From NCBI GenBank assembly GCA_022495995.1, contig JAFEMH010000339.1, positions 186,001 to 250,000 on the forward strand: a DNA stretch of 64,000 nt, in the 5' to 3' direction. A program made the position numbers and the translations under genes. Shown piece after piece: positions 14,252 through 48,158 of the stretch. The notes beneath the pieces are model-generated. The model was not told where the DNA came from. It worked only from the letters and a program-made list of their open reading frames with translations, and made no database searches. This DNA comes from Adenophora triphylla var. japonica. Its lineage: Eukaryota; Streptophyta; Magnoliopsida; Asterales; Campanulaceae. The first letter of the stretch is position 1. Every line of letters begins with the position of its first letter.

Positions 14252-14793
14252 TGTTAGAACATAGTCTATATATAAGATAGAAAATAAGCAACAATCACAC
14301 AACACATAGATATACGTGTTTCACCAACTTGGCTACGTCCATAAGTGCGGAGGGAGAGAATAATATCATATTCTGAAAATCAATCGATTACAATATCTAA
14401 TCTAATGTATCTTGTCTCTTCAAACCCTAGATCTAAAGAAACAGATGAGGAAAAACAACTATAAACATGGTTGGGGGTAGGCTCTATTTATATGCCATAC
14501 TTCTAACCCTGTAGGGTTTTACAATCATAAGCCAAATCTGTCGCTAAACAGAACTTTCCGAACTGAGGGCGCGATCGCCTCTACCTATGTCGCGATCGCC
14601 CCGTCCCTCAAAATGGCACCCGCGCGATCGCCCCACTAAGGGCGCGATCGCTCACTTTGTCCAGTAACTTGGTGCGGTCGCGCTCCCTCTTGGTGCGGTC
14701 GCTCACTCCGACTGTGTTAGGAATTTGGAATTTACTTATTTAATCCCCTAATTAATTTATGCATCACCAACTTATATGACATCAAACCCAACA
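14252..14793 (-). repeat. Copia A 5' LTR
   Basis: On the minus strand the LTR begins TGTTGGGTTTGATG at 14793 and ends CTAACA at 14252, next to the primer site. The 542-bp length suits Tnt1-like elements. The U3 half contains six GC-rich modules (14567-14704). The 5 bp outside the LTR start is TTTTG (14794-14798), the expected half of a TSD whose partner is lost. Confidence 0.8.
14567..14704. promoter_or_regulatory. Six phased GC modules in the Copia A U3 region
   Basis: Modules with the core GCGATCGC or GCGGTCGC have equivalent positions at 14575, 14596, 14628, 14648, 14678 and 14699. Spacings are 21, 32, 20, 30 and 21 bp, which makes three pairs. They lie about 90-225 nt from the LTR start, where U3 enhancers are expected. 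Function is inferred from position and regularity. Confidence 0.7.
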
Positions 14794-15031
14794 TTTTGAA
14801 GGAATGAATTAATAGATGAATCAAAGGAAAAAACACAATCATTTTCTTGTCTATGATCATAGATTCAACAAAAAGTTTTAAATTTAAATTATCAACATTT
14901 TTACTCAATTATTTTGTTGGATGAAATGTTATTACCTAAGATATAATTTCACATTACATATGTCTCAAGAAACTGTACGCCCCTTATTTCAAAATATTTT
15001 TAGTTTTAGATTTCTTTACACGTATTAAAAT

Positions 15032-15243
15032 GGAATAATTCCTCTAGGGCCCTCACGCCCAGATTTTATTCTATTTTAAAGAGTGCTTTTTTGTAAAACC
15101 CAAATAGGTAGTTCTCCTGAGATTATAATTTCACATACACCCCTCACTTCCGTTGACCAGTCAAATAAAATTCCTAAATATCGAAATTACCCCCGCCCTC
15201 AAACAAAACAATAACCTCCTCTCCCCTCCCCTCCCCTCATTCA

Positions 15244-15285
<42 letters not shown>

Positions 15286-15330
15286 TCTTACTCCTTCCCC
15301 TTTCACCTCCGTTGCCGGTGCTCCGAGTAT
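15032..15330 (+). repeat. Pack-MULE left terminal inverted repeat
   Basis: Pairs with 19880-20277. The outer ~120 bp align at roughly three of four positions by eye. The inner part includes a (CT)n run at about 15247-15280 and the block CTCCTTCCCCTTTCACC. In Pack-MULEs the TIR often doubles as the promoter and 5' leader of the cargo. The CT-rich leader here fits that. Confidence 0.72.
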
Positions 15331-15971
15331 GTGAGCTAGCGACCGCGAAGGACCGGAAAGGGACCTCGTTGAGCCACCGCCATCTCAAAGAAGGTGGGGC
15401 GCGTCCCTTGTCCTGAACCGACCTGGGAGAACAACATCTCTGCAAGAAATCTCTCTCTGTGGTTTTACGAGGTTTCGCCGGCAGTGTTACGGTGAAGTTT
15501 AATTAACGTCTCCGGCGAGGAAGAAGCAAGGGCTACGCGTTCAGCTTTTGAATCCCCTTCCAAGCTCATCTCCGGCGTCTAATTCCGTTGACGAATCCTC
15601 CAAGGTTCCAGTCCCTCTCAATCCCCTCCATTTCTAGGGTTTCTTACTCTAAATTTTACAATTCCATCAAATTTTCATCTCCGCATTTTATGTTACAAGC
15701 ATTATACAATGAAAATGTGGTGTTGCAGGTTTTTACGACAATTGGAACGCGGGTTACGGACATTTGTAGATATGGCAAGCGGCAAATATCTCTGGAAGAA
15801 CTTTGTTTCGTCGTCAAAGCGCGTCGATTAATGTTGTTATATTGATGCATTGAGGTTTGATTGTGCTGTTAATTGATTGTAGATTTACAAATTAAGTCCA
15901 ATGTTCTCTGTGTTGTATGTGTAATCATTTGACTCTAATCGAACAAATATTCAGTAATATGATTTGGGATA

Positions 15972-16433: not shown

Positions 16434-16514
16434 CAAACATCTATTTTCGTTAAGTTACTAACAATTGTTAATGTCTTTTAACATTTATTTATGATTTGGG
16501 TTGATTTGGTTAAT

Positions 16515-17395
16515 TTGGTTAATAAGTCTTATATGTTACTTATAAGACTTTTTTAATAAGTCTTATAAGTAACTTAAAAGAATTTTTAAAGTCTTATAAG
16601 TTACTTAAAAGAATTTTTAAAGTCTTACAAGTTACTTAAAAGACTTTTTAATAAGTCTTATAAGTAACTTATAAGACTTTTTAAAGTCTATTAAGTTACT
16701 TATAAGACTTTTTTACTTTTTAAAAAAGTCTTATAAATAACTTATAAGACTTATTAAAAAGACTTATAAGTTACTTATAAGACTTATTAAATTACTAATA
16801 AGACTTATATAATACTTTTTTAGTTTTTAAAAAAGTATTATAAATAACTTATAAGACTTATTAAAAAGTTACTTATATAAGACTTACTAAAAAAAGTCTT
16901 ATAAATAACTTATAAGAGTTTAAAAAGTCTTATAAGTTACTTATAAGACTTATTAAAAAGTCTTATAAGTTACTTTTTAATAAGTCTTATAAGAGTCTTA
17001 TAAGACTTATTAAGTTACTTATAAGACTGTTTTACTTTTTAAAAAAGTCTTATAAATAACTTATAAGACTTATTAAAAGGTCTTATAAGACTCTTATAAG
17101 ACTTTAAAGTCTTATAAGTTACTTATAAGAGTTTAAAAAGTCTTATAAGTTACTTAAAGACTTATTAAAAAGTCTTATAAGTTACTTTTTAATAAGTCTT
17201 TATGACTTATTAAAAAAGTCTTATAAGTAACTTATAAGACTTTTCTAAGAAGTCTTTTTACTTATAAGACTTTTTTAATAAGTCTTATAAGTAAAAAGAC
17301 TTATTAAAATAAGTCTTATAAGTAACTTATAACTTATAAGACTTTTTACAACACAGTTCCTAATGTTCAAATAGGTCTTATAAGTAACATTGTGG
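16515..17395. repeat. Palindromic A/T-rich repeat block 1 (AAGTCTTATAAGTTACTTATAAGACTT type)
   Basis: About 25 degenerate copies of a 30-37-bp unit built from TAAGTCTTATAAGT and its reverse complement ACTTATAAGACTTA. Each unit can fold back on itself, and larger inverted pairs are possible along the whole block. No ORF is supported. It lies between the PPR fragment and unique Pack-MULE sequence. Confidence 0.85.
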
Positions 17396-18154: not shown

Positions 18155-18960
18155 AATATAAGACTTTTTAATAAGTCTTATAAGTTATATAAGACTTATA
18201 AGTAACTTCATGAAGAATTGAAAGTCTTATAAGTTATTTAGGGATTTAATAAGTCGAACTTATAAAAACTTATAAAAGTTGTTGCTAAGTCTTATTTTCG
18301 GATACATTAAAAGTCTTAGGGAGTCTTATAAGACTTTAAAAGAAAAAAGTCTTGTGGATTAATTAATCTTATAAGACTTATTATAAGACTTTTCCCATAG
18401 AGCAAAGTCTTCGGATGGTTTCTATAACACCTTATAAGACTTATTTAAAAGTCTTATTAAGTTACTTATAAGACTTTTTAAAGTCTTATAAGACTAAAGC
18501 TTTATAAAGAGTCTTATAAGACCTTTAATAAGTCTTATATGTTATTTATAAGACTTTTTAAAAAATAAATCCTTCCTTATATGTCTTATAAGTTACTTAA
18601 TAAGTTTTATAAGACTCTTATAAGATTTATTAAAAAGTAACTTATAAGACTTTTTAATAAGTCTTATAAGTAACTTATAAGACTTTTTAAACTCTTATAA
18701 CTTATTTATAAGACTTTTTAATAAGTCTTATAAGTTATTTATAAGACTTTTTTAAAAAGTAAAAAAGTCTTATAAGTAACTTAATAGACTTTAAAAAGTT
18801 TTTGCCATTTTGAAGACTTATTTATAAGACTTATTGCTAAATTTATAAAAAGTCTTTAAGTAACTTATAAATTTAAAGTCTTTTTAAGTAACTTATAAGA
18901 TTTTAAAAAGTCTTTTTAAGCTTACTTATAAGCATTCTTATTAATAAGTCTTGTTATGTG
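18155..18960. repeat. Palindromic A/T-rich repeat block 2
   Basis: The same unit as 16515-17395 (AAGTCTTATAAG / CTTATAAGACTT), more degenerate, with variable linkers. The two blocks together may derive from one expanded array split by the unique 760-bp stretch. Confidence 0.8.
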
Positions 18961-20277: not shown

Positions 20278-20315
20278 TTCAAAATTTACTTCTGACTAAA
20301 AGTTAATATAGTTAA

Positions 20316-20514: not shown

Positions 20515-20517
20515 TAA

Positions 20518-22380: not shown

Positions 22381-22388
22381 AGTTATAT

Positions 22389-22680
22389 ATCACTACTACA
22401 TTTCTGACCTAATGTAACGCATCTAACGCATCTAATGTAACGCCACGAGCTAATGTAACACATCTAATGCAACGCCAGAGCTAATGTAACACATCTAATG
22501 CAACGCCAGAGCTAATGTAACGGCTAATGCAACGCCAGAGCTAATGTAACGCATCTAATGCAACGTCAGAGCTAATGTAACGCATCTAATGCAACGCCAG
22601 AGCTAATGTAACGAGTCTAATGCAATGCCAAAATCCTAATGTAACGCCTAAATTACTAATGCAACGCTAAAATCCTATAA
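22389..22680. repeat. CACTA-like terminus with ~31-bp tandem subterminal repeats
   Basis: CACTACTACATTT at 22389 resembles a CACTA terminus. It is followed by about seven copies of a 29-32-bp unit (GAGCTAATGTAACGCATCTAATGCAACGCCA type, alternating GTAACG and GCAACG words). No opposite end was found. The array runs straight into the CCCTATA satellite. Confidence 0.55.
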
Positions 22681-25928: not shown

Positions 25929-27261
25929 TGATGGATGTGTTTTTACACATCTAAATTAGGTACTCTTACACTTATTTATTGTGAAATTCTTGAATAAAAT
26001 GTTATTTTAATGTATTTTCTAGTATCTTTATGAGTACAGGTTAAGTAGGTGAAAAACTGTGGGTTAAAGTGAAGAAAGGAAGCAAAAGTGGAGCGGAGAT
26101 CTGTTGGAAAGTGAAAAGGGACTTGCGAGGTATTTTGAGAAGTCAAGGAGCCATTCTGCTGGAGGATCAAAGGGAAATTATGGAAGAAAAAGGGAGTAAA
26201 GCTGGAAGAGAAGGAGGGCGCACGCCTGGAGGAAGTGGGCGCACGCCCAAAACAACCAGATTGACACCAGGCGCACACCCAGGTTACCGCTGTGGCGTGC
26301 GCCCAAGTAGGCCTGGGACTGAGGAAGGCAGTTTCCTTATTTTGAAAGGATTCTAGAGATCTTTTGCAGATTTTATCTCCATAATCCTTTAGTATAAATA
26401 AAAGACATCTTAGGGTTAAATGATTATCATGCTTTTGGGATTCAAGACTCAATTAGGAACAAGGATTTCAAGTTTTTGCTTTACAATTCAAGGATCAAAC
26501 GAGGTTTATGTTTTGTTATTCATCTCTTTTGTCTTTTGCCATGAAGATGAGTAACTAATCTCTCTAGTTCATGGATTGGATGTAATATTCGTCGGATTTC
26601 TATGCTAGTATAATTTTCTAAAACTTTCTTGTTCATGTTTGATGAAATATCTATATTCAGTGTTAGGTTTCAATGTTATTTTAACCTTTAATTGTTAGGT
26701 TGTGAATCGTTGCACTAGCGTGGATTGTTCATAATTTAGGCCACTATTTCATCAATTGGATTTGATTGTTGACCTAGCGGAATACAAGAGAATCCAGATT
26801 CATATGTTCTTATTGTTCTTAATGAATTTCTTGATCATTGTTTTGACCTAGCAGAATCTACAATAGGAGAGAAATAGTAGAGTTGCAATCCGCACATCGA
26901 ACGTCCCAACTCTTAAATTAAGTGAACGAATCTTTGGACAAGATTGTTAATTTTATCATGATAATTCTAGCATAGAATGAAGATGAATATGAAATCCAAT
27001 CCGTGAATTTCTTTGATCTGATTGAATCCGTATTTTTTGCTTTCGTGTTTTCTTAAATTCATTAGTTTAATTTCGTGCATTAGTAATTTTAGTTAATAAA
27101 CCAAACCAAAAACCCCTCTTTTTGTTACTTTTAGCATTAATTAAATTTACTTGTTAAAACACACGAGTCTCTGTGGTTCGACCCTTACTTTTGTACGTTG
27201 CTACTACGGTAACTTGTACACTTGCAAGGTTTTTTATTACACAGTGGAATTTTATCCATCA
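25929..27261 (+). repeat. Gypsy 1 5' LTR
   Basis: Starts TGATGGATGTG and ends TTTATCCATCA, 1333 bp. Matches the 3' LTR closely, with most differences inside the GC-module cluster (26216-26304). The promoter is probably near the TATAAATAAA word at about 26392. Confidence 0.92.
26216..26304. promoter_or_regulatory. Four phased GC modules in the Gypsy 1 5' LTR
   Basis: The modules are GGGCGCACGCC, GGGCGCACGCCC, AGGCGCACACCC and GGCGTGCGCCC, with centres at about 26221.5, 26242.5, 26274.5 and 26298.5. Spacings are 21, 32 and 24 bp. The 3' LTR copies (36946-37030) have 21, 32 and 21. They lie in U3, about 290-380 nt from the LTR start and upstream of the TATA word. Confidence 0.7.
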
Positions 27262-27267
27262 AGTTTT

Positions 27268-28849: not shown

Positions 28850-29989
28850 GTGGAAAATGTTGTTGTTGAGGATGTTGTGTCTAATGATGAGGGTACTAAT
28901 GGATTGGGGAAAAATGTGAATGTAGAAAAGTCCAACCCCAAGCCATATGTGCCTCCTGTTCCTTTCCCTGGTAGATTTTTGAGGAACAAACATGATCACC
29001 AAATGAAAGAATTGATTGACATGTTTTCAAAAGTTAATATAAATTTGCCTTTGTTAAATGTGATCAAGAATGTTCCCGCGTATGCCAAATTCTTCAAGGA
29101 AATTAATTCCAAGAAAATTCAAGATGGGAAAGATGATAAATTGGTGTTGGGTGAGAATGCGAGCGCCGTAGTCAAACATAGTCTCCCACCGAAAATGAAA
29201 GACCCCTGAGTTTCCTAATTTCCATTACTTTGGGGGATTCTCACACGGTGAGAGCTATGCTTGATCTTGGGGCAAGCATTAATCTGTTGCCTTATTACAT
29301 GTATCTTGAGTTGGGTTTACCGGAGCTAAAACCCACTATGATGGCCCTACAACTCGCTGATCGGTCCATAAAAAGACCATTGGGCATCGTAGAGGATGTT
29401 TTAGTTCAGGTTGGGTCATTGATCATTCCTGTGGATTTTGTGGTTTTAGAGATGCCTCGCGGTGAGGGTAGTAGCCGTGATTCACCCATTTTGCTTGGGA
29501 GACCATTCATGGCAACGACCAACACCGTAATCAATGTTGCTAGTGGCACTCTCTCCATGACTGTCGCAAATGAAAAAAATTGAAATAAATGTTTTTGAGG
29601 TAATGAAAAATGCGGTAGGTCATGATGAGTCTTGCATGTTTGTAGATGAGTTTGATGAGGTTGATGATTGTGTGCGTGAAATGTCATGGCATGAGAGAGA
29701 TTGTGAGGAGTTAGAGTCATTAATTTCAATGGGCGGTGAGAAACCTAGGGATAATGCGGATGCTCAACTGATGGCTGTGGATAAGGCCGACGAGCACCAT
29801 CCTAGTGATGGCCCGTTTCACCCCCTAGGCCACTTCAATGAGAAGTTGGCGCCCTCTATTGTGATCCCCCCAGCCCTTGCGTTGAAAATTCTCCCGTCAA
29901 ATTTAAAATATGCATTTTTAGGAGAGGGAGAGACTTTACCCGTCATAATTGCATCTCGATTTGTCCACTCGACCAAGAGGCCCAATTGA
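28850..29989 (+). pseudogene. Gypsy 1 gag tail and aspartic protease region
   Basis: Frame 28850-29209 carries the Pro-rich segment before the protease. 29230-29583 carries the retropepsin-like domain with the motif AMLDLGASINLLP at about residue 8 and the ILLGRPFMAT block near its end. A one-base shift at about 29580 leads into 29570-29989, an acidic linker that ends in the ALKILPSNLKYAFLG motif that precedes reverse transcriptase in this lineage. The catalytic triplet is DLG rather than DTG or DSG. Short overlaps between frames are due to indels, not programmed frameshift signals. Confidence 0.8.
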
Positions 29990-32798
29990 TTGTCGTTTTG
30001 TGTGAATATAAAGAGGCCATTAGGTGGACATTAAAAGACATTAAGGGAATTAGTCCCACGATGTGCATGCACAGAATTCATCTCTTGGATGGTGCTAAAC
30101 CGTCTAGGGAGAGGCAACAGAGGCTGAATCCTCACATGGAGGAAGCCGTGAGAAAAGAGGTCCTTAAATTGCTAGATGCGGGTATCATTTACCTGGTGGC
30201 TGAAAGTGAATGGGTAAGTCCGGTACAAGTTGTACCAAAAAGATCGGGCATCACTGTAGTTCAGAATGAGAAAGGAGAGGATGTGCCCATGAGAGAAGTG
30301 ACCGGTCTTAGGATGTGTATTGACTTGAGAAAACTAAATGCTGCAACTAAGAAAGATCATTTTCCTTTACCTTTTATTGATCAAATGTTAGAAAGATTTG
30401 CCGGTCACTCTTACTATTGTTTTCTTGATGGCTTTTCGGGGTATAATCAAATTGCCATAGCCCCCGAAGATCAGTCCAAAACCACCTTCACATGTCCATT
30501 CGGCACTTATGCATTTAGGAGGATGCCCTTCGGGCTTTGCAATGCACCTGCGACATTTCAAAGGTGTATGACCTCCATTTTTTCGGATATGATTGAAAGG
30601 TGTGTCGAGGTCTTTATGGATGATTTTTTGGTTGTTGGAGATAGTTTTGATGATTGTTTAAAGAACTTGGAATCTATTTTGAAAAGATGTTGTGAAACCA
30701 ACTTGACATTAAGTTGGGAAAAGTGCCATTTTCTTGTAAAGCATGGGATTGTTTTGGGTCACATTGTGTCAAGTAAGGGGATTGAGGTCGATAGGGCTAA
30801 AATTGATGTGATTGCTAAATTACCTCCCCCGAATTCGGTCAAGGGTGTGCGAAGTTTCCTAGGGCATGCGGGTTTCTATAGGCGATTTATAAAAGATTTT
30901 TCAAAAATTTGTAAGCCGTTATGTAATCTGCTTGCCAAGGATACGGAGTTCATTTTTGACCAAGAGTGTGCTGATGCGTTCAATTTGCTTAAGGAAAAGT
31001 TGACATGTGCCCCCATTCTTTCTAGTCCCAATTGGTCTCACCCTTTTGAGATCATGTGTGATGCCTCGGACTTTGCTATTGGGGCTGTTTTGGGACAAAG
31101 GGTAGACAAATTACCTTCCGTGATCCATTATGCAAGTAGAACACTTAATGATGCACAATCGAATTATACCACAACCGAAAAGAATTTCTAGCTGTTGTGT
31201 TTGCATTGGAAAAGTTTCGTTCTTACTTGCTAGGGTCAAAGGTGATAATTTATTCTGACCATGCTGCATTGAAACATTTATTGAATAAAAAGGATGCTAA
31301 ACCTCGTTTGTTGAGGTGGATGTTATTGTTACAAGAATTTGATGTTGAGATCCGAGACAAAAAGGGGAGTGAGAATGTGGTAGCGGATCATTTATCGAGG
31401 CTTGAGGACTACTCGTATCTTAATATCGAGGAGAGTGTGATTCCGGTTAATGAAAATTTTCCGAATGAACAACTTCTTGTCATACATGTCCAAGAGCCGT
31501 GGTATGCAGATTTTGTCAATTACTTGGTGTCCAATATGATCCCACCACAGTTCACCTATGACCAAAAACGTAAGTTTAGGTCCGATGTGAAACACTATAT
31601 TTGGGATGATCCGTATTTGTGGAAAATCTGCCCAGACAAAATTATGAGGAGATGTGTCCCGGACCATGAGCAAAGTAGTGTGTTGAAATTTTGTCATGAA
31701 CTCCAATGTGGGGGTCATTTTAGTGGCCAAAAGACCGCTAGGAAAGTGCTTCAATCGGGTCTTTATTGGCCCACTTTGTTCAAAGATGCTCAAGCGTTTT
31801 GCATTAGGTGTGATAGATGTCAACGGTCCGGGAATATAGGAAAGAGAGATGAGATGCCTTTACAACATAATTTGATAGTTGATATTTTTGATGTTTGGGG
31901 CATTGATTTTATGGGCCCATTTCCCCCGTCCCATGGTTTTCTATATATACTTGTAGCAGTTGATTATGTTTCAAAGTGGGTGGAGGCAATTCCCGCCCGC
32001 ACAAATGATGCTAATGTTGTTTGCAAGTTTGTTTGTGAGAATATTTTCAGCAGGTATGGCATGCCACGAGCAATCATTAGTGATCAAGGGACGCATTTCA
32101 CGAACCGGATGTTCAATCAGCTGTTGAAAAAGTATGGGGTAGTTCACAAATTAGCCACGGCCTATCATCCTCAAACTTCGGGCCAAGTAGAGGTGAGCAA
32201 CCGCCAAATCAAAGGGGTGCTTGAGAAAACAGTGCGCCCAAATCGCAAGGATTGGTCTCGGAAATTGTGTGATGCATTGTGGGCGTATCGGACAGCATAC
32301 AAGACCCCTATTGGCATGAGTCCGTATCGTATTGTTTATGGAAAGGAGTGCCATCTTCCGGTTGAATTGGAACACAAAGCTTATTGGGCCACCAAAGAGC
32401 TCAACATGGATTTGGCTCTAGCGGGAGAAAAAAGGTTGCTTGATTTGGATGAGCTGGAAGAACTGCGACAAGACAGTTATGAGAGTGCTAAATTGTATAA
32501 AGAGAGGACCAAACGATATCATGACAAAAATTTGAAGCCCAAGTTCATAAGGCCGGGTATGAAAGTCCTTCTCTTCAACTCTCGTTTGAAGCTCTTTCCG
32601 GGCAAGTTGAGTTCTAGATGGTCGGGTCCATATGAGGTAGTGCATGTGTATCCGCACGGAGCAGTTGAGCTCAAAGATCTAAAAGATGGCACAGTGTTTA
32701 AAGTGAATGGTCACCGAGTAAAACCATATTATGAAGGGGTGTCCATTTTGGAGGATATCGATGTGGTCGAGTTGGTGGACCCGAAGGAGACCACGTAA
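29986..32798 (+). pseudogene. Gypsy 1 pol: reverse transcriptase, RNase H, integrase (one frameshift)
   Basis: 29986-31191 encodes reverse transcriptase with FLDGFSGYNQ, the MPFGLCNAPATFQ block and the catalytic FMDDF at about residue 211. The start of RNase H follows (FEIMCDASDFAIGAVLGQ). A one-base deletion near 31188 shifts the frame. From 31197 RNase H continues ([11 protein letters not shown]), then the integrase zinc region ([12 protein letters not shown]) and the D-D-E core at residues 237, 296 and 332 of that frame. A C-terminal part with [20 protein letters not shown] ends it. Stop TAA at 32798. The polyprotein copies RNA into DNA and integrates it. All catalytic residues are present and the frameshift is the only break in this stretch. 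Confidence 0.9.
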
Positions 32799-34027
32799 TT
32801 CCTATCGGGCATAACGTCGAGCTTAACGACTATAACCAAAGCGCTAATTGGGAGGCAACCCAATGTAGGTAACATTTACTGCTTTCTGTATTTTCTTTTC
32901 AGTTTTCTTCATCTTTGCATTTAGGTTGTGTTGTGTTTTTCTTGGTCTATGCCATGAGGACATAGCATGGTGTAAATGTGGGGGTGGGGGTTATTTATTT
33001 AAAAAAAAAATTCATTAGGGGTCCTTTATTTCGTAAACGTGTCGAACTACGGTGACCTGAGCCTATTTTTGTTGGGTAGTCCGCCCACATTAATGGGGAC
33101 GTAGGCAACGAAAGTGCGGTCAAAATGTGTGTCAATTCTTGACATACAAAAAGTTTTAAGTCACTCCGTGTGAGTCTTCCCGAGTTTGTGGGTTTATAGG
33201 GGAGTGTAAATAGTGTCACCCTCCAAAAATATTTTGCTTTTATTATGTTAGTTTGTTTACTTCGATTGATCCTTTTACTTTTGTTTTATTTGTCTTTTAT
33301 GATTTTATTTATTTAGCAGATCTTATGCTTGGGTTTTATTCTTGTGGTGATGTGTAGATGTCATTCGCCAATCAATGAAGGGAAGTGGAAATACTGTGGC
33401 TGCAGATTATGCAAGCAAAGGAAAAAAAAATGAACACTGGTGAAATTTGGAGTGGGTGTGCGCCTGGAGTACTTGGGCATCCGCCTGTTTGTCTCAGCAT
33501 AGGATTGGGCGTGCGCCTGGGGGAGTTGGGCGTGCGCCCGGGATAGGTGGACCGGTCAAACTGGGGTGGTGAAATAAGGAAAGGGACGATTAATTCCTAA
33601 TTTTTCAAAACCCTTTGCAATTGTCCTCCTTTCTCTCTCTAAAAGCCACGGTCCCTTCCCCCCCTCTCTCTAAAAATTGAACCCCTAAACTCCCAAATCC
33701 GCCATTGTTGCTCACCAAATCCTCATCTACACCCATTATACTCCCTCCAAAACCGAAGTGCACAACAAAATTTTCAACCTTGAAACCCTAAGTGCCGAAT
33801 TTTCTTTGGAAAGAAGAAAGAGGTGGGTTTTGTTGATTGGAGCCATTGGGAGCCAAATTGAAGGGAGACTCTTGTGGGGAAAGTGTTGAAAGGTTAAGCT
33901 CCATAGTTGCCTTCATCTTCTCCATCTCCGGCAAGTATTCCGGCCAACTCCGGTCACTTTTCCGGCGAACCTCTGCAGTGGAAGTAAGTTTCTTGTTAGT
34001 TTTTGTAAGTTTTCTGGGTGATTAACA
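32799..34027 (+). other. Gypsy 1 spacer between pol and ORF3
   Basis: 1.2 kb without coding pattern. It holds a second GC-module array at 33455-33538. 33600-33990 is CT-rich leader-like DNA before the ORF3 start, with a GT-containing AAGTAAGTTT donor-like site at about 33980, so ORF3 may be expressed from a spliced RNA. Confidence 0.6.
33455..33538. promoter_or_regulatory. Internal GC-module array of Gypsy 1
   Basis: Four modules (GGGTGTGCGCC, GGGCATCCGCC, GGGCGTGCGCC, GGGCGTGCGCCC) have centres at 33459.5, 33480.5, 33512.5 and 33533.5. Spacing is 21, 32 and 21 bp, identical to the 3' LTR array, although the surrounding sequence is unrelated. It lies upstream of ORF3. Confidence 0.7.
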
Positions 34028-35362
34028 ATGAGTGGCTCTAGAAAAAGGAAAGAGGTTGCACAAGAACAAACCCCTCCCGGTCCTCCCCATGATGCAAATA
34101 AATTCAAGAGTCGAAAAGCGGAGAATTTCTTTGTTCAATATGAGCGTAAACAGTGCAATGCAGAAAGAGAGTTTTATTTTGAAGATTTGGGTTTGGATGA
34201 TATTGTGGAGAGGTATCAATGGATAAATCTTGCGGGTAAGCCAAAACAGAATGGGGTGGCATTGTTGGTAAAAGAATTTTATGCAAATGTTCATGAGTTG
34301 GGAAATTGTGGAGAGTCTTATGTGAGGGGACGTCCGGTGAATTACTCGAGTGAAATGATTAATCAGTATTATTCCATGCCAAATGTTGAAGGGTGTAAAT
34401 ATTCTAGCACTATAGGGGCGATGGAAAAAGAATGGAAAAAGGAAATTCATGTGATTCAATCAACCTTTGGACGTGTGGATATAAATTTGAATGATGGAGG
34501 AAAGTTGATGCCAGTTAAGAAGTTGAGGCACAGACTGAGATACTTGCACAGGTTTATCAGTGAACGGGTTATGCCGAGTGCGCATAAGCATGTGGTGCAT
34601 TGGAAAAGGGCACGGCTTATGCATTTGGTGCTGAAGGGAGAGCCCATTAATACGGGATTGATTATTTCCAACCAAATTGCCCATAATGCGGAGAAATTGA
34701 GCAATGTCAACTTCAAGTTACCTTGTTTGATCACTTATTTGATTTCAAAGGCAAGGGTAAATCTGCCGTCAAGGGACTTGAAGCCGGGGCCTAAGATAGA
34801 TTTGAGCACTATGACCAAGAAAAGTCACATTCAGTCGGGGGAGGCGGTGTCAGGATCGAGTGATGAGGATGATGGTGAGAATGAAGAAGGAGAAGGAAAT
34901 GACGAAAATGAAGGAAATGATGAAGACTTGGAGGATACCGAGGAAGCACGGATTGAGTTATATAGAAGAGATCCCGCCATGGGGATGCATGCTCTGAATT
35001 TGACTATGACTGCGGTAAGAGTGGAGGTGAATCGATTGAATACAAAGTTTGAGAATCTCAATACTCGTTTTGAGGCAGGTGAGCAGAGCCGAATAGAGGA
35101 AGCTATGAGAGCCCAAGCACACAGGGATGTGCAAGATGAAAGATGGGAGCAACTCATGGGTTATTTGCTCCCACAAGGCAGTAATTGGCAGCAGTCTGCT
35201 CCACCACAATCACAGCCACAAGGGGGCAAGCCAAGAGCTTCAGCTAGCCCAGAGTGGTCCTTGGGATCAACATTTTCGCGCTCCGCCTCAGTAGTTGGTC
35301 GAGGTACCCCTAACCCTTTCTTATGTTTTATTTACATTATATGCATTAGGGACAATGCATGA
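34028..35362 (+). CDS. Gypsy 1 ORF3, plant transposon protein domain, in the env-like position
   Basis: An intact frame of 444 codons from MSGSRKRKEV. The N-terminus is basic. Residues ~35-245 follow the pattern of the putative plant transposon protein domain (PF20167-like): FVQYER, LVKEFYANVHE, VRGRPVNYS, INQYY, then a helical RFISERVMPSAH segment and LITYLISKARV. Residues ~275-310 are an acidic Asp/Glu/Gly/Asn tract. A predicted coiled coil follows (VEVNRLNTKFENLNTRFE), then a Gln/Pro/Ser-rich tail. There is no signal peptide or membrane span, so nothing supports an envelope role. A nuclear or RNP function is possible. It is the best-preserved ORF of the element. Confidence 0.78.
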   Translation: MSGSRKRKEVAQEQTPPGPPHDANKFKSRKAENFFVQYERKQCNAEREFYFEDLGLDDIVERYQWINLAGKPKQNGVALLVKEFYANVHELGNCGESYVRGRPVNYSSEMINQYYSMPNVEGCKYSSTIGAMEKEWKKEIHVIQSTFGRVDINLNDGGKLMPVKKLRHRLRYLHRFISERVMPSAHKHVVHWKRARLMHLVLKGEPINTGLIISNQIAHNAEKLSNVNFKLPCLITYLISKARVNLPSRDLKPGPKIDLSTMTKKSHIQSGEAVSGSSDEDDGENEEGEGNDENEGNDEDLEDTEEARIELYRRDPAMGMHALNLTMTAVRVEVNRLNTKFENLNTRFEAGEQSRIEEAMRAQAHRDVQDERWEQLMGYLLPQGSNWQQSAPPQSQPQGGKPRASASPEWSLGSTFSRSASVVGRGTPNPFLCFIYIICIRDNA

Positions 35363-36658: not shown

Positions 36659-37984
36659 TGATGGATGTGTTTTTACACATCTAAATTAGGTACTCTTACA
36701 CTTATTTATTGTGAAATTCTTGAGTAAAATGTTATTTTACTGTATTTTCTAGTGTCTTTGTGAGTACAGGATAATTAGGTGAAAAACTGTGGATTAAAGT
36801 GAAGAAAGGAAGCAAAAGTGGAGCGGAGATCTGTTGGAAAGTGAAAAGGGACTTGCGAGGTATTTTGAGAAGTCAAGGAGCCATTCTGCTGGAGGATCAA
36901 AGGGAAATTATGGAAGAAAAAGGGAGTAAAGCTGGAAGAGAAGGAGGGCGCACGCCTGGAGGAAGTGGGCGCACGCCCAAAACAACCAGATTGACACCAG
37001 GCGCACACCCAGTGCCAGGGGGCGTGCGCCCAGTAGGGCCGGACTGAGGAAGGCAGTTTCCTTATTTTGAAAGGATTCTAGAGATCTTTTGCAGATTTTA
37101 TCTCCATAATCCTTTAGTATAAATAAAAGACATCTTAGGGTAAAATTATTATCATGCTTTTGGGATTCAAGACTCAATTAGGAACAAGGATTTCAAGTTT
37201 TTGCTTTACAATTCAAGGATCAAACGAGGTTTATGTTTTGTTATTAATCTCTTTTGTCTTTTGCTATGAAGATGAGTAACTAATCTCTCTAGTTCATGGA
37301 TTGGATGTAATATTCGTCGGATTTCTATGCTAGTATAATTTTCCAAAACTTTCTTGTTCATGTTTGATGAAATATCTATATTCAGTTTTAGGTTTCAATG
37401 CTATTTTAACCTTTAATTGTTAGGTTGTGAATCGTTGCACTAGCGTGAATTGTTCATAATTTAGGCCACTATTTCATCAATTGGATTTGATTGTTGACCT
37501 AGCGGAATACAAGAGAATCTAGATTCATATGTTCTTATTGTTCTTAATGAATTTCTTGATCATTGTTTTGACCTAGCGGAATCTACAATAGGAGAGAAAT
37601 AATAGGGTTGCAATCCGCACATCGAACGTCCCAACTCTTAAATTAAGTGAACGAATCTTTGGACAAGATTGTTAATTTTATCATGATAATTCTAGCATAG
37701 AATGAAGATGAATATGAAATCCAATCCGTGAATTTCTTTGATCTGATTGAATCCGTATTTCTTGCTTTCTTGTTTTCTTAAATTCTTTAGTTTAATTTCT
37801 TGCATTAATAATTTTAGTTCATAAACCAAATCAAAACCCCATTTTGTTACTTTTAGCATTAATTAAATTTACTTGTTAAAACACACGAGTCTCTGTGGTT
37901 CGACCCTTACGTTTGTACGTTGCTACTACGGTAACTTGTACACTTGCAAGGTTTTTTATTACACAGTGGAATTTTTATCCATCA
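36659..37984 (+). repeat. Gypsy 1 3' LTR
   Basis: 1326 bp, starting TGATGGATGTG and ending TTTTATCCATCA. It carries GC modules at 36946-37030 with centres 36951.5, 36972.5, 37004.5 and 37025.5. The junction at 37984/37985 runs directly into Copia B gag. Confidence 0.92.
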
Positions 37985-38650
37985 ACCACTCACTACGTTC
38001 TCCCTAGATTCGGTTCTCCCTTGTTTGCTAGTACCCGGCTTCCCCTTGCTAGTAGTAGCTAAAGCCGATCCCGAAGCACTCGATGTCCCCAACTTCTTCA
38101 TGCGATTTTCGGCCAAAAGAAAGTCTTTAACATCATCATACTTCAATTTCTTCTTACCTGCTGAAGCATTGATCGCTGTCACTGTTCCGCTCCAACTTGC
38201 TGGTAAAGATGCTAGCAACAAGCACGCATGAACCTCATCATCGAACTTGATCTCCACCGCAGCCAATGAGTCTATAACATCCATAAACTCATCGATGTGC
38301 TTAGCCAAGGATCCTCCCTCTTGCATCTTGAAACTACCCATCTTGCGTATCAAATCAACCTTATTTGCAGCAGATGGAGTTTCAAATCTCTCAGTAAGAT
38401 AATCCAATAGCTCCTTGGTGGTTGTCGCCTTCTTGGTAGTCTTTGCAATCCACTTTGACAAAGTAGATCTGACCACCCCTAGGGCTTTCCGATCCATGAG
38501 TTCCCATTCTTCCTGATCTTCTTCTTCCGGTTTGACACCCTTCAGAGGCTTATAGAGATCCTTGTTGTACAAGAGATCCTCAATCTGCATCCTCCAATAT
38601 CCGTAGTCAGACCCATCGAATTTCTCAACCGCCTGTTTGTCCTTGCCCAT
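37985..38650 (-). pseudogene. Copia B gag, 3'-truncated
   Basis: The Met at 38650 (MGKDKQAVEKFDG) starts a UBN2-type Copia gag: YWRMQIEDLLYNKDLY, then LLDYLTERFE, then a KMQEGGSLAKHIDEF block, then LLASLPASW. About 220 residues are open without interruption until the frame meets the Gypsy 1 LTR at 37984. The zinc knuckle and all of pol are absent. The lack of stops shows that Copia B was young when it was cut. Confidence 0.85.
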
Positions 38651-38703
38651 TCTTGATTGCTTGACAACACCCTTGATCTTGAACCAAGAGCTCTGATACC
38701 AGT

Positions 38704-39264
38704 TGTTGTGAATATGGCCCTCCACTACCAAGCAAACCTACAAGAATGATTAGAGCACACAAAGCAAGGCACAAGAAATAAATCACAAAGAAGAACACAA
38801 GAAATTGTTAACCCAGTTCACCAATATGTTTGGCTACGTCTGGGGGCACTACCAAGCCAGGATCTTGCACTATAATATGTAGAATTTTGTTACAATGAGT
38901 TTTGGGGCGGAACTTTACTTATATATGACCTAGGGAAACAAACCGAACCCTAGATGGACAAGGGAACTAGAAAATCAGACGTAAAATCCGGACTGCTGAA
39001 ACGGGCTAAGCGCGGCCGCTCTCCATGCCTGTGCGGTCGCGCTAACATCCAGAGACTTCAATGCCTTTGTCCGAGCCTCCAGCGCGGTCGCCCTCGTGCC
39101 TCAGCGCGGTCGCCCTCAAATGATTTCCTCCGAGCCATAGTTACTGTCCAAGAGCGCGGTCGCGCACCATCACCTGTGCGGCCGCCCTTGACACCAGCAA
39201 CTTCAGACGAATTTCTCCCCCTTTTGCTCCGAAGTCTAGACCCGGTTGGTCCTCTATCCCAACA
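38704..39264 (-). repeat. Copia B 5' LTR
   Basis: 561 bp, on the minus strand starting TGTTGGGATAGAGG and ending CACAACA next to the primer site. The adjacent 5 bp, GTGAG (39265-39269), would be one half of its TSD. U3 contains six GC modules. Confidence 0.82.
39012..39185. promoter_or_regulatory. Six phased GC modules in the Copia B U3 region
   Basis: Cores GCGGCCGC or GCGGTCGC have equivalent positions at 39016, 39037, 39088, 39110, 39160 and 39182. Spacing is 21, 51, 22, 50 and 22 bp: three pairs with a 72-bp period. They lie about 80-250 nt from the LTR start. Confidence 0.7.
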
Positions 39265-40680: not shown

Positions 40681-40689
40681 CGTTTAGGG

Positions 40690-42027: not shown

Positions 42028-42068
42028 GGGTTTTGTTAGGATACCCCCTTCAAGAGTATTTTAACAAG

Positions 42069-42243: not shown

Positions 42244-42678
42244 TTAACAAGTGACCCCATATTTTAAGACCAAAATATCCCTTCTTTATTTTTAGTTCAT
42301 GTACAAGATGAAGGGACATTTTAGTCAACAAAAAATGGGTTAGTTGTTAAGGTACTCCTATATATATATGATGGGGACAAAATTATAATCATCAAATCAA
42401 AAGGCCTCACACACACACACACACATACTCTCCCCTTTCTCTCTCTAAAAACCCTCTCACCTCTCGGCTACCCACTCCCTCCGGCGACCGGCGACGGCTT
42501 GCTCTCATCTCCTCCTCCTTTTGTCGACGGCTTTCTCTCATCTAGATCGAGAGCTCGATGACCTGATTTGGATATTATATAGCGGGAGACGGAGGCAGCA
42601 ATGGAGAGGAGTGGACGGATGTGGTGTTGGACGTAGATGAGAGAGAGGGGGGGACGGATGTGGTATTGGACGTAGATG

Positions 42679-43208
42679 TAATGTAAACGCAGCGGAATCA
42701 ATAATGATAAACAAGAAAATCAAAGGGATCTCTTGACCTTGATTCGAAACCACGAATAAAGGGTTTAAGAACTCAAGAAGGATTCTTCTGCATAGTTTGC
42801 AATTGAATAATAATCAAAAGTTGTCCCAAAAACAATGACCAAAGTTGTTTAAATACTTCTAAAACCCTAAGCAACAAATACTAAAGCAAAGGACTAAAAT
42901 GCCCCCAAGTTTGAAAACCACATACTCAGTAATTGAATAAAACGTAAACAAGGAATCAATCAACGACGCCAACAACGACGCGAGGCGGGCGCCCAACCTA
43001 GTCTCAGGCGGGCGCATGAAAGACCGCAACTTCTCCCTTAGTTGGTCGAGCTTGAGGCGGCCGCATGGATGTGGGTGGGCCGGCCGCATGGACAACCGAA
43101 CTGCTCCCCATGGTTGAGTCAATTTGAGGCGGCCACTTGCTATGGCCTGTGGCGTGCGCATCAACAACCCCAACAACAGAAGACGTTTCCTCCTTACCCG
43201 CTACATCA
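42679..43208 (-). repeat. Gypsy 2 3' LTR with phased GC modules
   Basis: On the minus strand it starts TGATGTAGCGGG at 43208 and ends TTTACATTA at 42679, giving non-canonical TG...TA ends set by the TSD. Six GC modules (AGGCGGGCGCCC, AGGCGGCCGCAT types) have centres at 42988.5, 43011.5, 43060.5, 43083.5, 43132.5 and 43155.5. Spacing is 23, 49, 23, 49 and 23 bp: three pairs with a 72-bp period, in U3. Confidence 0.85.
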
Positions 43209-44410
43209 TGCTCCCCTTCTTGAAAAGGATTCGTCCCCGAATCCACATCAACATAAAGAGGGTCGTCCGGGAAATACTCGAAGAGGTCAGCGACATTGAA
43301 AGTAGGAGAAATGTGCCACCCGTCAGGTAACTCCACAACATAAGCGTTATCATTGACCTTGCGCACCACCTTGCAAGGACCGATCTTCTTGGGGTGCAAC
43401 TTACTGTATGTACCCACCGAAAACCTCTCCTTGCGCAAATGCACCATAACCAAATCTCCCACAGAAAAAGTCTTGACGCGATGTCGCTTATCCGCATCTG
43501 CCTTATACTTAGCATTCGAGACCTCAATATTCTTCCGGACCTCCGCCTGAATAGTGTCGAATGATTCTGCCAAATGTTCAGCTGCAACGCTATACCCCGA
43601 CAACTTTGGTAAGGGAACCAAATCAAGTGTATGACTCGGAGGACGCTGGTACACAACCTCGAATGGTGTCTTCTTCGTAGTTCTGTTAGGCATATTATTA
43701 AAAGCAAACTCAGCAGTGGCCAACATCACATCCCACTTCTTCAGATTGTCACTGCATAAACAGTGAACCATCGACCCCAAAGTCCGATTAACCACCTCCG
43801 TCTGGCCATCTGTCTGAGGATGAAAAGAACTGCTAAACTGAAGGCCCGTTCGGAAGATACTCCACAATGTACGCCAAAAATGGCTTAAGAATTTTGTGTC
43901 ACGATCGGAAGTAATTGTCTTGGGAACCCCATGTAGGCGAACCACCTCCTTGAAGAAAAGTCCCGCAATATGAGCAGCATCCGATGTTTTACGACACGGA
44001 ATAAAATGGGCCATCTTCGAGAAACGATCAACGACCACAAACACCGAATCATTGGACCTTTGTGTATGAGGTAACCCTAAAACAAAGTCCATCGAAATAT
44101 CCTCCCAAGGGGCTGTAGGAACAGGAAGAGGGGTGTACAATCCCGTATTCTGGGACTTCCCTTTGTTCGTCTGACAAACCATGCACTTCCGCACGAACAT
44201 ATAAGTATCCCTCCGCAGCTGTGGCCAATAGTAACGTTGGGAAACCAACTCCAAAGTTTTGTCACGACCAATATGACCATCCTTGTGAATCTCCGCAATA
44301 AGACTCTCACGAACGGAGCCTTGAGGAATGCACAAACGGTTCTTGAAAAATAAGAACCTATCCTGCAGAAAGAACACTCCGACAGATCTCCATGCCGACA
44401 ACGAGTCCAA
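43004..44410 (-). CDS. Gypsy 2 integrase, open frame running into the 3' LTR
   Basis: 468 codons from [10 protein letters not shown], without an internal stop. The zinc region has H42, H46, C76 and C79. The catalytic core has D108, D169 and E205 with 35 residues between the last two, within [16 protein letters not shown] and GQTEVVNR. Residues ~320-375 are the C-terminal domain ([22 protein letters not shown], then FNVADLFEY). From about residue 402 the frame crosses into the LTR and the last ~67 codons are read from LTR sequence, including the GC modules. The upstream end of the polyprotein is broken, so this frame is an isolated remnant of pol with all catalytic residues. Confidence 0.85.
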
Positions 44411-44659
44411 TCTGCGTTAAAAATCAGATCTCGACGCATACAACTCTTTCAAGCACCAAACCCCACCACAACAAGATGCATTGTAACCAACAAACTCACC
44501 CGACGACTCAAAGCATCGGCAACCTTATTATGTTGCCCACTTTTGTGTCAATAACAAAAGTGAACCGTCAGAGATATGCCACCCAACGTGCATGCATCCC
44601 GTTAAGAGATTTCGACCATTCATATATTTCAAGGCTTCAAGATCGCATGAAGGATAAAC

Positions 44660-45625
44660 TCACTGTAATAAATACTGCTCCCAATGTTTGATGGCCTGAA
44701 CCACCGCATAGAATTCAAGCTCGTACGTGGTCCACTTACGTTTAGCCTCCTCAAGCTTTTGACTCATAAAAGCCACAGGTCGCTTACTCTGAATCAAAAC
44801 AGCCCCAATGCCCACAACAGAGGCATCAGTCTCCAACTCAAAAGGCTTAGAGAAATTCGGTAATACCAAAATAGGAGCACTAGTGAGTTTCTCCTTAATT
44901 AAGGCAAAACTAGCAGCAGCCTCGTCACCCCACAAGAACTTCCCCTTTTTCATACATTCAGTAATAGGAGCTACAAAAGTACTAAAGTTCTTAATGAAAC
45001 GACGGTAAAAAGTAGCAAGACCATGAAAATTGCGTACCTCACTAACTGTAGTAGGAGTAGGCCAGTCGCGAATAGCCCGAACTTTTTCTTCATCAACCTG
45101 AATCCCATCCGCAGAAACGACATACCCCAAGAACAACATCTTGTCAAGCATAAAACTGCACTTCTTGAAATTGATGTACAACTCATTCTCTCGAAGTGCC
45201 TGCAGAACCAACCGAATATGCCCAATATGCTCCTCCTCTGATTTACTAAAGATCAGTATGTCATCAAAGTAAACCACCAAAAATTTCCCATTAAAAGGCT
45301 TCAAAACCTGATTCATCAACCGCATAAAAGTGCTAGGAGCATTAGATAAGCCGAACGGCATTTGAACTCAACCACTCATAAAGCCCTCCTTGGTTTTCAA
45401 AGCGCCTTCCACTCATCACCTCGCGAACCCTCACTGATGGTACCCACTACGCAAATCAATCTTAGAGAAGATGCGAGCACCACAAAGGACATCTAGCATA
45501 TCATCAAGGCGGGAATAGGGAATCAGATTTGACAAGAATCTTGTTAATAGCCCCGCTATCAACACACATCCTCCAGAACCATCCTTCTTGGGAACAAGTA
45601 GAGCCGGAACCGCACAAGGGCTCAA
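44660..45625 (-). pseudogene. Gypsy 2 reverse transcriptase and RNase H, frame-shifted
   Basis: 45625-45431 holds the N-terminal part (VPALLVPKKDGSGG, then DDMLDVLCGARIFSKIDLRSGYHQ). After a damaged stretch, 45361-44660 holds [18 protein letters not shown], the catalytic [33 protein letters not shown], and the start of RNase H ([34 protein letters not shown]). Stops and shifts occur near 45540, 45430-45362 and at 44660. The 44411-44659 interval before the integrase frame is degraded RNase H/linker. Confidence 0.87.
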
Positions 45626-45715
45626 ACTTTCCCGAATATAACCCCGCCGTAATAATTCCTCAACCCGCGACCTCGTAATATCATGCTCACCTGGCTCAAT
45701 CTCTAGCGTGGCAAA

Positions 45716-46306
45716 TTAGTGAGGGAAGCGCCTGTGGACTAAGTCAATGTTATGCCGAATATCCCGCAACGGAGGCAACCCCGCAGGAAGTTCATCAGGC
45801 ATAATGTCCCTATACTCATCCAATAATGCTTGTAAAGTAGTAGGAACTAAACAAGTGCCATCACCCAAGCCCTTCTTGACTACATCAAAAATAACAGGCG
45901 CGTTCATAGCCTCGGAAACAAACTCCTGTGCAGTACATAGTGAAACAATAGGCTTTCGCCTAGGTTGGGCACATACAGATTTTTCACGCAATGGACACAA
46001 ATTAAAACGAGCCCCATCCTTCATAAAGCTCAAAACATTATCCAGACCCTTATGCACGACATTAAGGTCGAATTTCCATGGTCGACCCAACAAAAGATTG
46101 CAAGCATTCATATCCACAATATCACATAAGACATCATCCTTATAACGACCAATAGAAAAGGGGATAAGACATTGTTGGTGTACCTTAATGTTGTCCAAAG
46201 AATTTATCCACCCAACCGTATAAAGGCGTAGGATGCGTGCCGTCTTCTCACCCGCAATTTCTCCACCGTATCCCGCGAAATCGATTTTCGCTACTCCCAC
46301 TGCCAA
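45716..46306 (-). pseudogene. Gypsy 2 protease region
   Basis: A 196-codon frame. The retropepsin active-site part is just upstream and shifted (a VGSGSS.NVVS-like stretch near 46310). The visible frame has the conserved C-terminal protease block CNLLLGRPWKFD followed by the linker to reverse transcriptase (MPDELPAGLPPLRDIRHNIDL). It stops at 45716, where a TAG interrupts the run into reverse transcriptase. Confidence 0.75.
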
Positions 46307-46373
46307 CGATGATAGAAACTATAGAATCATTAACCTTCCCCGCGTGCGAAAAATGTTGTGACGTTCCTGATCA

Positions 46374-47427
46374 TCAGCCAGCTAGAGGGGTTGTCAACAT
46401 AAGTCTTCGAACCACCAAAGAGGAATGCTCTTCCTCGACATCGGCTTCATCATTGGGATCCTCCCAAAACTCCTGACAAGCGTCCTCATTGACATCCTCC
46501 TCACCATCATCCCTTTCAACCACATTAACAGATTTACGACTCGGACATTGGCTCGAAATATGACCCACGCCACCACACTTATAGCACTTGTCACCGTAAG
46601 ACTTAGCATAAGGATTGGTAGTCCGACGGTTAGTCGAGGTAGGCGGAGCTCGGCCACGCACGCCAAGCTGGCAGGGGCGGAGGTTGTTTTCGCTTCGGCA
46701 CTCGCTGAACCCCCAACATGTGTCTTGCCCGAATCAGAACCCACAGCAGTCGACGATTGACCCCCCAAATTACGGAACTGAGAGGGTGGCCTGAAAGTCG
46801 GTGCCAACTGACGTTCGACTGTTTGCGCTCGTTCGATAGCCTCATCCAAGAAACCGACGTAATGGAGTTCAACCCGATTACGGATATTCTGTCGTAGGCC
46901 TCAACAAAGCGAGCTGTCAATTGCGCATCCGTTTCACTCAAGTCAGTGCGAGATGACCAGTTGTGAAAATCATGGAGATAAGCATCAACCGTTCTAGCAC
47001 CTTGTTTACACTCCATGAACTTCTTGTACATAACCTGCTCAAAATTAACAGGTAGAAATCTCTGCCTCAAAGCTTGTTTCATACGGTCCCAATCATTAAT
47101 TGGTGGTCTTCCATTACAAATCAATTGGTTATTGATTTGTTTCCACCATGCAGACGCACCACCCCTTAATTTGTATGCCACATATGGGACTTTTTTCCCC
47201 TCAAACGTATTGATCAAATCAAAATATTTTTCAACTTCATCTAACCAATCAGAAAAACCAACCATGTCCAACTCACTTAAAAGAAGGGAATATCTCGCCT
47301 TGATTTTTGGTAGTTGTTCGATATTGTTCTCAATTCCTCCGCCGGCGGAGCGCGATGGAAGTGTCTCGTCTCGCGTCCCCGCAGGGATCTCACGATTGCC
47401 CGCCCGATGCCCTTGGCCGAGCCGCAA
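46374..47427 (-). pseudogene. Gypsy 2 gag with CCHC zinc knuckle, frame-shifted
   Basis: 47427-46870 encodes the retrotransposon gag core: GFSDWLDEVEKYFDLI, VAYKLRGGASAWW, WDRMKQALRQRFLP and MECKQGARTVDAYLHDF. After shifts near 46870 and 46660, the frame 46661-46374 gives the zinc knuckle CYKCGGVGHISSQC (C-x2-C-x4-H-x4-C) and an acidic stretch. N-terminal codons continue upstream in another frame to about 47590 (an RRDAQDRAARAEEHARN-like helix). Confidence 0.82.
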
Positions 47428-47627
47428 AGCTCCGTAAAGATTCCACGATTTCTCGCATGTTCTTCAGCGCGAGCGGCGCGATCCTGCGCATCTCGTTGCC
47501 GCATCCGTGAATCAACGCAAAGAAAATTCGAGGTCATTGTAGCTACGGCCGTTGCCAAGCTCATTGATACCTCCATCGTTACCGTTATTGGCCATCGTCC
47601 TAGGATCTCTCCTGCTCTGATACCAAA

Positions 47628-48158
47628 TAATGTAAACGCAGCGGAATCAATAATGATAAACAAGAAAATCAAAGGGATCTCTTGACCTTGATTCGAATCC
47701 ACGAATAAAGGGTTTAAGAACTCAAGAAGAATTCTTCTGCAGAGTTTGCAATTGAATAATAATCAAAAGTTGTCCCAAAAACAATGACCAAAGTTGTTTA
47801 AATACTTCTAAAACCCTAAGCAACAAATACTAAAGCAAAGGACTAAAATGCCCCCAAGTTTGAAAACCACATACTCAGTAATTGAATAAAACGTAAACAA
47901 GAAATCAATCAACGACGCCAACAACGACGCGAGGCAGGCGCCCAACCTAGTCCCAGGCGGGCGCATGAAAGACCGCAACTTCTCCCATGGTTGGTCGAGC
48001 TTGAGGCGGCCGCATGGATGCAAAGGGCGGGCCGCTGCACGGACAACCGAATCAAGCCCCACGGCCGAAGCCAATTTGAGGCGCCGCTGTGCGGCTCGCG
48101 GGCGTGCGCATCAACAACCCTAACAACAGAAGACGTTTCCTCCTTACCCGCTACATCA
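47628..48158 (-). repeat. Gypsy 2 5' LTR
   Basis: 531 bp and about 95% like the other LTR by eye. Differences cluster in the GC modules (47933-48110), whose first three centres keep the 23 and 49 bp spacing while the fourth and fifth are rearranged. Confidence 0.88.

Follow-up and report, generated by a model that had tools for sequence, protein, structure and literature searches.

How do retrotransposons whose long terminal repeats (LTRs) share no sequence come to carry the same short palindromic boxes at the same distances? The question is raised by four families, hereafter Copia A, Copia B, Gypsy 1 and Gypsy 2, within a 64,000-nucleotide stretch of DNA from Adenophora triphylla var. japonica (the window; G000:C339:186001-250000 of a 2.48-Gb plant assembly, to which all genome-wide counts refer). 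An initial annotation had described paired boxes 20-24 bp apart, with pair-to-pair periods of 50-53 or 72 bp, in all four families; the individual box starts confirm this. The GCGNNCGC-type boxes form doublets ~20-24 bp apart, which repeat with a period of either ~52 bp (21 + 31) or ~72 bp (22-23 + 49-51). What is new here is that the arrays lie not only upstream of TATA-like sites in LTRs, but also upstream of an extra open reading frame (ORF) of Gypsy elements, denoted T32.

Box arrays in four retrotransposon families

A box was defined as an exact match to GCGNNCGC or a match with one mismatch, and distances were measured from start to start. The elements and their arrays (unstranded) are as follows.

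14251..14718, minus strand: Copia A LTR, single, read by eye; right border uncertain
13553-13966: Copia A gag ORF, left of the LTR; 63-65% identity to locus L017, which has Pfam Retrotran_gag_2
14571..14702: Copia A array, six boxes starting at 14571, 14592, 14624, 14644, 14674 and 14695 (21/32/20/30/21); TATA-like site 78 bp away on the transcribed side
38707..39264, minus strand: Copia B LTR of an interrupted element, borders by eye; iMet primer site 322 bp from the array
37982-38737: Copia B gag (Pfam Retrotran_gag_2)
39012..39185: Copia B array, six boxes starting at 39012, 39033, 39084, 39106, 39156 and 39178 (21/51/22/50/22); TATA-like site 86 bp away
25929..27262, plus strand: Gypsy 1 5′ LTR, 96.8% identity to 36659-37985; primer-site match 973 bp past the last box
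26218..26302: Gypsy 1 5′ LTR array, boxes starting at 26218, 26239, 26271 (one mismatch) and 26295 (21/32/24); TATA-like site 90 bp downstream
29842..32798, plus strand: Gypsy 1 reverse transcriptase (RT), RNase H and integrase (Pfam RVT_1, RT_RNaseH_2, rve)
33456..33537: Gypsy 1 internal array (box starts 33456-33530; 21/32/21, as in the 3′ LTR array), boxes 1 and 2 with one mismatch each; upstream of the extra ORF, ending 485 bp before its frame; absent from the initial annotation
34028..35362, plus strand: Gypsy 1 extra ORF, T32 (Pfam Transposase_32, PF20167)
36659..37985, plus strand: Gypsy 1 3′ LTR, from self-comparison with the 5′ LTR
36948..37029: Gypsy 1 3′ LTR array, boxes starting at 36948, 36969, 37001 (one mismatch) and 37022 (21/32/21)
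42679..43208, minus strand: Gypsy 2 3′ LTR, 93.1% identity to 47628-48158
42985..43159: Gypsy 2 3′ LTR array, boxes starting at 42985, 43008, 43057, 43080, 43129 and 43152 (23/49/23/49/23), those at 43080 and 43129 with one mismatch
43004..47463, minus strand: Gypsy 2 gag to integrase region (Pfam Retrotrans_gag, RVT_1, RT_RNaseH_2, Integrase_H2C2, SH3_Tf2-1); rve scores slightly below the curated Pfam cut-off
47628..48158, minus strand: Gypsy 2 5′ LTR with iMet primer site; array 47934-48109 partly lost, with boxes left at 47934 (one mismatch), 47957 and 48006, then 48102

Arrays had originally been assigned to both Gypsy 2 LTRs; the 3′ LTR has a full one, whereas in the 5′ LTR part of the array has been lost and the remainder rearranged. 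The absence of any LTR sequence common to the families is borne out, as blastn gives no alignment at E<=1e-3 among the four window LTRs, arrays included.

Judged from 238 distinct array boxes with both sides pooled, the box reads roughly RNGYG-NN-CRCNY, a palindrome of ~12 bp whose centre is mostly GCG-NN-CGC. At position +2 outside the octamer, C stands in 94% of cases where the centre is AT and in 96% where it is GT/AC; where it is GG/CC, T stands there in 91%. In Gypsy 1, CA/TG cores predominate in both the LTR and the internal array.

The spacing rule across the genome

Whole-genome counts were compared with those of the reversed pattern, which has identical bases and the same number of CpGs. 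The single box GCGATCGC occurs 23680 times (2858 reversed), and pairs of it 8-38 bp apart 4763 times (1 reversed); the exact pair with N14 between the boxes occurs 698 times (0 reversed). Pairs of boxes with a non-A core (first centre base other than A) number 57099 at 8-38 bp (620 reversed) and 63488 at 39-69 bp (599 reversed), and paired boxes are thus enriched ~90-fold or more over the reversed pattern. The distances within these pairs were taken from the first places listed on the first contigs, and for non-A-core pairs from contig C1 only. For GCGATCGC, 38 of 50 listed places are at 19-22 bp, 11 at 30-32 and one at 25. Non-A-core pairs of the shorter class are at 21-23 bp in 67/78 listed places, and 30 of the 31 start-to-start steps of 60-80 bp in that listing are 71-75 bp; in the longer class 53/57 listed places fall at 47-55 bp, the others being 40, 41, 41 and 69.

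The rule recurs in unrelated surroundings. We collected 67 arrays with at least two exact boxes (2-8 per array, at a nearly constant period) from 57 sources and compared their 350-bp flanks with the arrays masked, which gave 22 clusters at E<=1e-3 and 24 at 1e-6; a clustering with unmasked arrays was discarded, since it merged 55/67 arrays owing to the arrays themselves. Taking from each cluster the array richest in boxes, we find 81 of the 85 neighbour distances of at most 80 bp within 20-24, 29-32, 47-54 or 71-74 bp. When the bait pairs by which loci had been picked were removed (21 sources, copies by descent included), 89/90 pair distances up to 75 bp lie in 19-23, 29-32, 49-54 or 71-75 bp, and no pair is found at 24-28, 33-48 or 57-70 bp. 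A less biased sample comprised 20 loci, each picked by one box only, a GCGATCGC site among the first on contig C1. Among these, L025 has the full 23,49,23,49,23 series with CC/TC/GC/CA centres, its seed box lying 399 bp off; L028 has 23,30,21,51,23; and L030 has 51, plus one-mismatch boxes 21 and 30 bp away. Shorter series occur in L041 (72,51), L042 (22) and L044 (21 and 62).

These distances bear on the helical phasing proposed initially. Spacings of 21-23, 30-32, 49-52 and 72-74 bp do occur, but those near 42 and 63 bp are rare, and pure helical phasing was rejected because 33-48 and 57-70 bp are empty in the 21 sources although four and six turns would be allowed. The arrays follow a narrower rule than any whole number of turns would allow, namely a fixed doublet that repeats with one of two usual periods.

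Several of the off-band box pairs (15, 40, 41 bp) come from another palindrome, one with CGCCGTATA/TATACGGCG, at G000:C1:370863, 527807, 723954 and 1364414; by eye, window positions 11245-11322 resemble it.

Conservation in other copies

Had the spacing been peculiar to the individual insertions, it should appear random in other copies; it does not, as seen directly for Gypsy 1 and Gypsy 2 and via related loci for the Copia families. For Gypsy 1, we examined 20 of the 38 remaining LTR matches listed; 16 of them retain all four positions of the grid, one mismatch and a shift of one base being allowed, two retain three and two retain two. For Gypsy 2, eight other listed copies of 79-88% identity were examined. 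Five (L082, L083, L086, L087, L088) have six exact boxes at 23/49/23/49/23, and L081 and L085 keep that grid, each with one mismatch in two of the boxes; in L084 a single box has one mismatch and no sixth is recognisable. Over a gap-free 183-bp block of nine sequences (the eight copies and the window 3′ LTR, the rearranged 5′ LTR being excluded), identity is 94.8% at the GCG..CGC positions, 79.6% at the central NN, 87.7% at the two flanking bases and 72.9% in the spacers; 30/36 box columns are invariant versus 40/111 spacer columns.

Among Copia A-related LTR pieces, L008 has distances of 51,30,22 and L017 has 53,22,32 and 53,20. A 574-bp alignment at 77% identity joins Copia B to L046, which gives 21, 48, 21, 52, 18 if an extra box is skipped. 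L045, L048 and L060 have a 48-bp piece in common with Copia B (L045 and L048 also further short pieces), while L047 enters the Copia B cluster solely via other members.

Arrays at LTR TATA-like sites and upstream of T32

In 36/64 arrays, related ones being counted apart, a TATAWAW motif occurs at a distance of 40-180 bp on one side only, and in 0/64 on both; random placement on either side would give 21.9%. Several arrays have a match to the iMet primer site at 213-631 bp, and one has it at 1061 bp. The modules had at first been placed in U3, but they are not confined there and recur at an internal promoter-like site.

That site lies upstream of T32. The Gypsy 1 internal array is followed by pyrimidine tracts 86 and 114 bp downstream, ahead of the T32 frame. 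Seven T32 loci were measured, six picked via boxes and one being the window (L007, which has just a late portion of T32, was excluded); in 7/7 the array ends 293-504 bp ahead of the ORF, frame starts being approximate, and a pyrimidine tract of at least 12 lies within 40-86 bp past the array in 6/7, L050 being without one. In L050 and L055 an eight-box array stands between the T32 frame and an integrase with 62% and 70% identity, respectively, to that of Gypsy 1. A search of the genome with the T32 protein listed at least 105 matches, with 95 of 4475 candidates scored, and six further loci were picked by protein match alone (39-63% identity). Three of these have GCGNNCGC arrays within 270-620 bp upstream of T32 (L091, with 21,30,22 and 20,30,22; L093 and L094, each 21,32,21). 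In the remaining three, which belong to two families, the boxes are of the GTGNNCAC type and lie ~600-960 bp ahead of the frame, spaced 21,52,21,44,20 in L089 and 21,31,32 in L090; L092, near-identical to L089, has listed 20-21-bp pairs at C304:603274-603439.

Among 2782 candidates from the protein database no T32 homologue was found at E<=0.001, and the single-sequence structure prediction (mean pLDDT 38.5) was unusable.

Since arrays stand ahead of both LTR TATA-like sites and the T32 ORF, their common position appears promoter-like, and what unites the two settings is, judged by placement, a promoter-like location rather than an LTR function such as integration or packaging.

In four related loci of one T32 family (L005:2770, L007:2111, L011:7238, L024:3197), which count as one observation, an additional array follows the T32 frame; its TATA-like site is on the opposite strand, perhaps marking an antisense promoter.

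Proposed role of the arrays and alternative explanations

The arrays are best regarded as a putative cis platform common to unrelated Copia and Gypsy families, upstream of promoter-like sites and kept in copies, and to that extent the common protein-DNA platform first envisaged is supported, though not its simple helical phasing. We propose, with a probability of roughly 0.58, that the arrays are promoter-proximal cis-regulatory platforms which hold at fixed geometry a DNA-binding protein acting as a dimer, probably an activator from the host. Each box, a ~12-bp palindrome, is of a type that homodimeric DNA-binding proteins recognise, and two boxes about two turns apart would constitute the doublet that repeats every ~52 or ~72 bp. 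The combination of palindromic site, fixed doublet and fixed period points to cooperative binding of several dimers, which would be held at a set geometry immediately upstream of the start site. The LTR promoters of many unrelated families, both Copia and Gypsy, would use this code, which would recur at the internal promoter-like site of those Gypsy elements that have the extra ORF; the reader would be a host transcription factor and the array a shared enhancer. From the boxes and their spacing, position, conservation and sharing, all directly observed, we infer use of the internal site as a promoter, binding by dimers, host origin of the protein and activation. In GCGG[TC]CGC arrays (for example L049 and L055), CAG stands at the same offset in 10/14 distinct long spacers between such boxes, drawn from eight loci of which not all are independent; this suggests that the module contains a second site for binding.

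Several observations weigh against this proposal. Twenty of the sampled 10-kb loci were picked by a 22-bp pair and sixteen by a pair up to 38 bp, such that the doublet distances are partly selected, the long distances being unselected; and in the sample picked by one box, 14/20 loci, several of them mutual copies, have one exact box only. No TATAWAW is in range of 28/64 arrays. The GTGNNCAC variant was recognised post hoc, after inspection, and GTGABCAC pairs are not enriched genome-wide (251 forward versus 1057 control). Boxes with GC or CA/TG cores have C or T, mixed, at position +2, and the centre is variable (AT, GT, GC, CC, CA, GG), often family-dependent; because it varies between families, several cognate factors would fit as well as one, and there would be room for several readers or for an element-encoded one.

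A host transcription factor is nevertheless the most likely reader, with anti-silencing ranked second. According to the latter, an element-encoded or host protein would bind the arrays and keep the promoters unmethylated, as VANC does for VANDAL elements. The arrays are CpG-dense and present at both promoter-like positions, and their core dinucleotides are often family-specific, both Gypsy 1 arrays being mostly CA/TG; VANC motifs likewise form dense non-coding arrays, with VANC6 motifs found in the unrelated AT9TSD1. Nonetheless, in the available extract of that work (PMC5735166) VANC targets consist of motifs that share one orientation within dynamic tandem repeats, and a fixed spacing of doublets is not described there; we consider this explanation unlikely. 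It is improbable that a single DNA-binding system, perhaps T32-encoded and driven by its own array, activates or de-silences promoters that have arrays, unrelated Copia families having adopted the code. A less favoured but serious possibility, compatible with enhancer function, is that one promoter module spread among families by recombination or template switching, the spacing being retained by descent. Copia B and L060 have a common 48-bp LTR piece yet different box types (GT versus CC cores), and the CAG position is common to the long spacers of several loci; on the other hand, the array spacers of the window families are unalignable, in keeping with the lack of blastn matches among their LTRs.

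The palindromes could instead act by structure, as RNA or single-strand hairpins, or as a source of small RNA, as has reportedly been proposed for LTR palindromes of maize Sireviruses. The folding z-scores of seven arrays are -3.4, 0.8, 0.0, -1.8, -1.5, -0.9 and -4.8. Copia A (-3.4) and L049 (-4.8) thus fold better than shuffles, but the other five are at -1.8 or weaker, including Copia B (+0.8) and Gypsy 2 (0.0), and a hairpin as the common denominator was rejected. The centres are moreover often not self-complementary (GT, AC, CA, GG), and a 49-52 bp step is not predicted, leaving this explanation very improbable. Functionless tandem duplication of a 52- or 72-bp unit could yield the nearly constant period and the variable box number, but it hardly accounts for boxes far better conserved than spacers on a constant grid, or for the identical rule in unrelated flanks and at internal sites, and we regard it as scarcely credible. 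The two CpGs in each box would be expected to mutate faster if methylated.

If the enhancer platform proposed above is correct, a single spacing code has become common to the promoters of numerous unrelated retrotransposon families within the same genome. The tens of thousands of box pairs would offer a direct route to the protein reading it, and would allow one to ask whether mobile elements have a common activator or a common escape from silencing. The arrangement would also bear on how an ORF within a Gypsy element acquires its own promoter, and the strict spacing makes clear predictions for reporters and binding assays.

Other features of the window

48950-49426: ATL-type RING gene; best named matches in Escallonia, Camellia, Liquidambar, Pistacia and Ilex
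57585-60729: another Gypsy RT and integrase region, ~25-32% identity to Gypsy 1; the sole listed GCGNNCGC box nearby is at 62236
22674-24208: long array of the 7-bp unit CCTATAC/TATAGGG in both orientations, a telomere-like variant in appearance
16519-17332 and 18431-18952: AT-rich blocks of TTATAAGACTT-type palindromic repeats, mutually related directly and inverted
6634-9562: tnp2 transposase (7796-9562) beside an ATHILA ORF-1 piece (6634-7212)

Comparison with known systems

Repeated U3 enhancers upstream of the TATA box are known from Tnt1, Tto1 and murine retroviruses, and in the present arrays, too, repeats lie just upstream of the start site, as judged from TATAWAW placement and thus from predicted start sites. 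To our knowledge, the Tnt1, Tto1 and murine retroviral repeats are family-specific and not common across superfamilies. In the open-licence literature we found no report of this spacing rule, nor of GCGATCGC in connection with a retrotransposon.

Other systems resemble the arrays in part. The LTRs of Del (Gypsy) elements have a CpG-rich stretch in their 5′ part, as here, but these plastic CpG islands are set by CpG content, vary in length and are reported absent in eudicot Del, and palindromes are unmentioned in the portion of the Del text available (PMC4029996). VANC targets share with our arrays the dense arrangement of short motifs in non-coding parts, possible also in unrelated elements; unlike them, they belong to DNA transposons, have other motifs and an element-encoded reader, and are described without fixed spacing in the extract cited (PMC5735166). 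The extra ORFs of Grande (gene23 among them) and Retand are, in the excerpts to hand, located between pol and the 3′ LTR, antisense to gag-pol, and that of Grande is transcribed from its own promoter (PMC7264820, PMC11963269). They resemble T32 in occupying the long 3′ internal region of Gypsy elements, whereas T32 is in sense orientation with a box array upstream.

The closest known system is the RM boxes of Sireviruses, which, in the part of the source available, are palindromic, CpG-rich, high-copy boxes upstream of the LTR TATA, in some elements also 5′ of ENV, with a CGG-CCG core, Copia carriers and no spacing rule reported (PMC2829016). The present arrays likewise consist of a palindromic repeated box in the LTR upstream of a TATA-like site, with further boxes 5′ of an extra ORF, here T32, for which identity with ENV is not implied. 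They differ in their GCG-NN-CGC core, CGGCCG occurring only in GC-centred boxes (26/238), and in that the box, the strict doublet rule and the two positions extend over Copia and Gypsy. The Pfam domains of Gypsy 1 and Gypsy 2 place both in Gypsy and hence outside the Sireviruses. The Sirevirus junction is given in the same source as CA/ATTGG-TATCAGAGC, with T or G at the second place (PMC2829016); by eye, Copia B has CA/ACTGG-TATCAGAGC and Copia A CA/AGCTGG-TATC, which also sets these two apart, though less firmly, the junction being the point of comparison. Because their core differs and Gypsy families carry them, the arrays appear to resemble Sirevirus RM boxes in their working but not to be members of that class.

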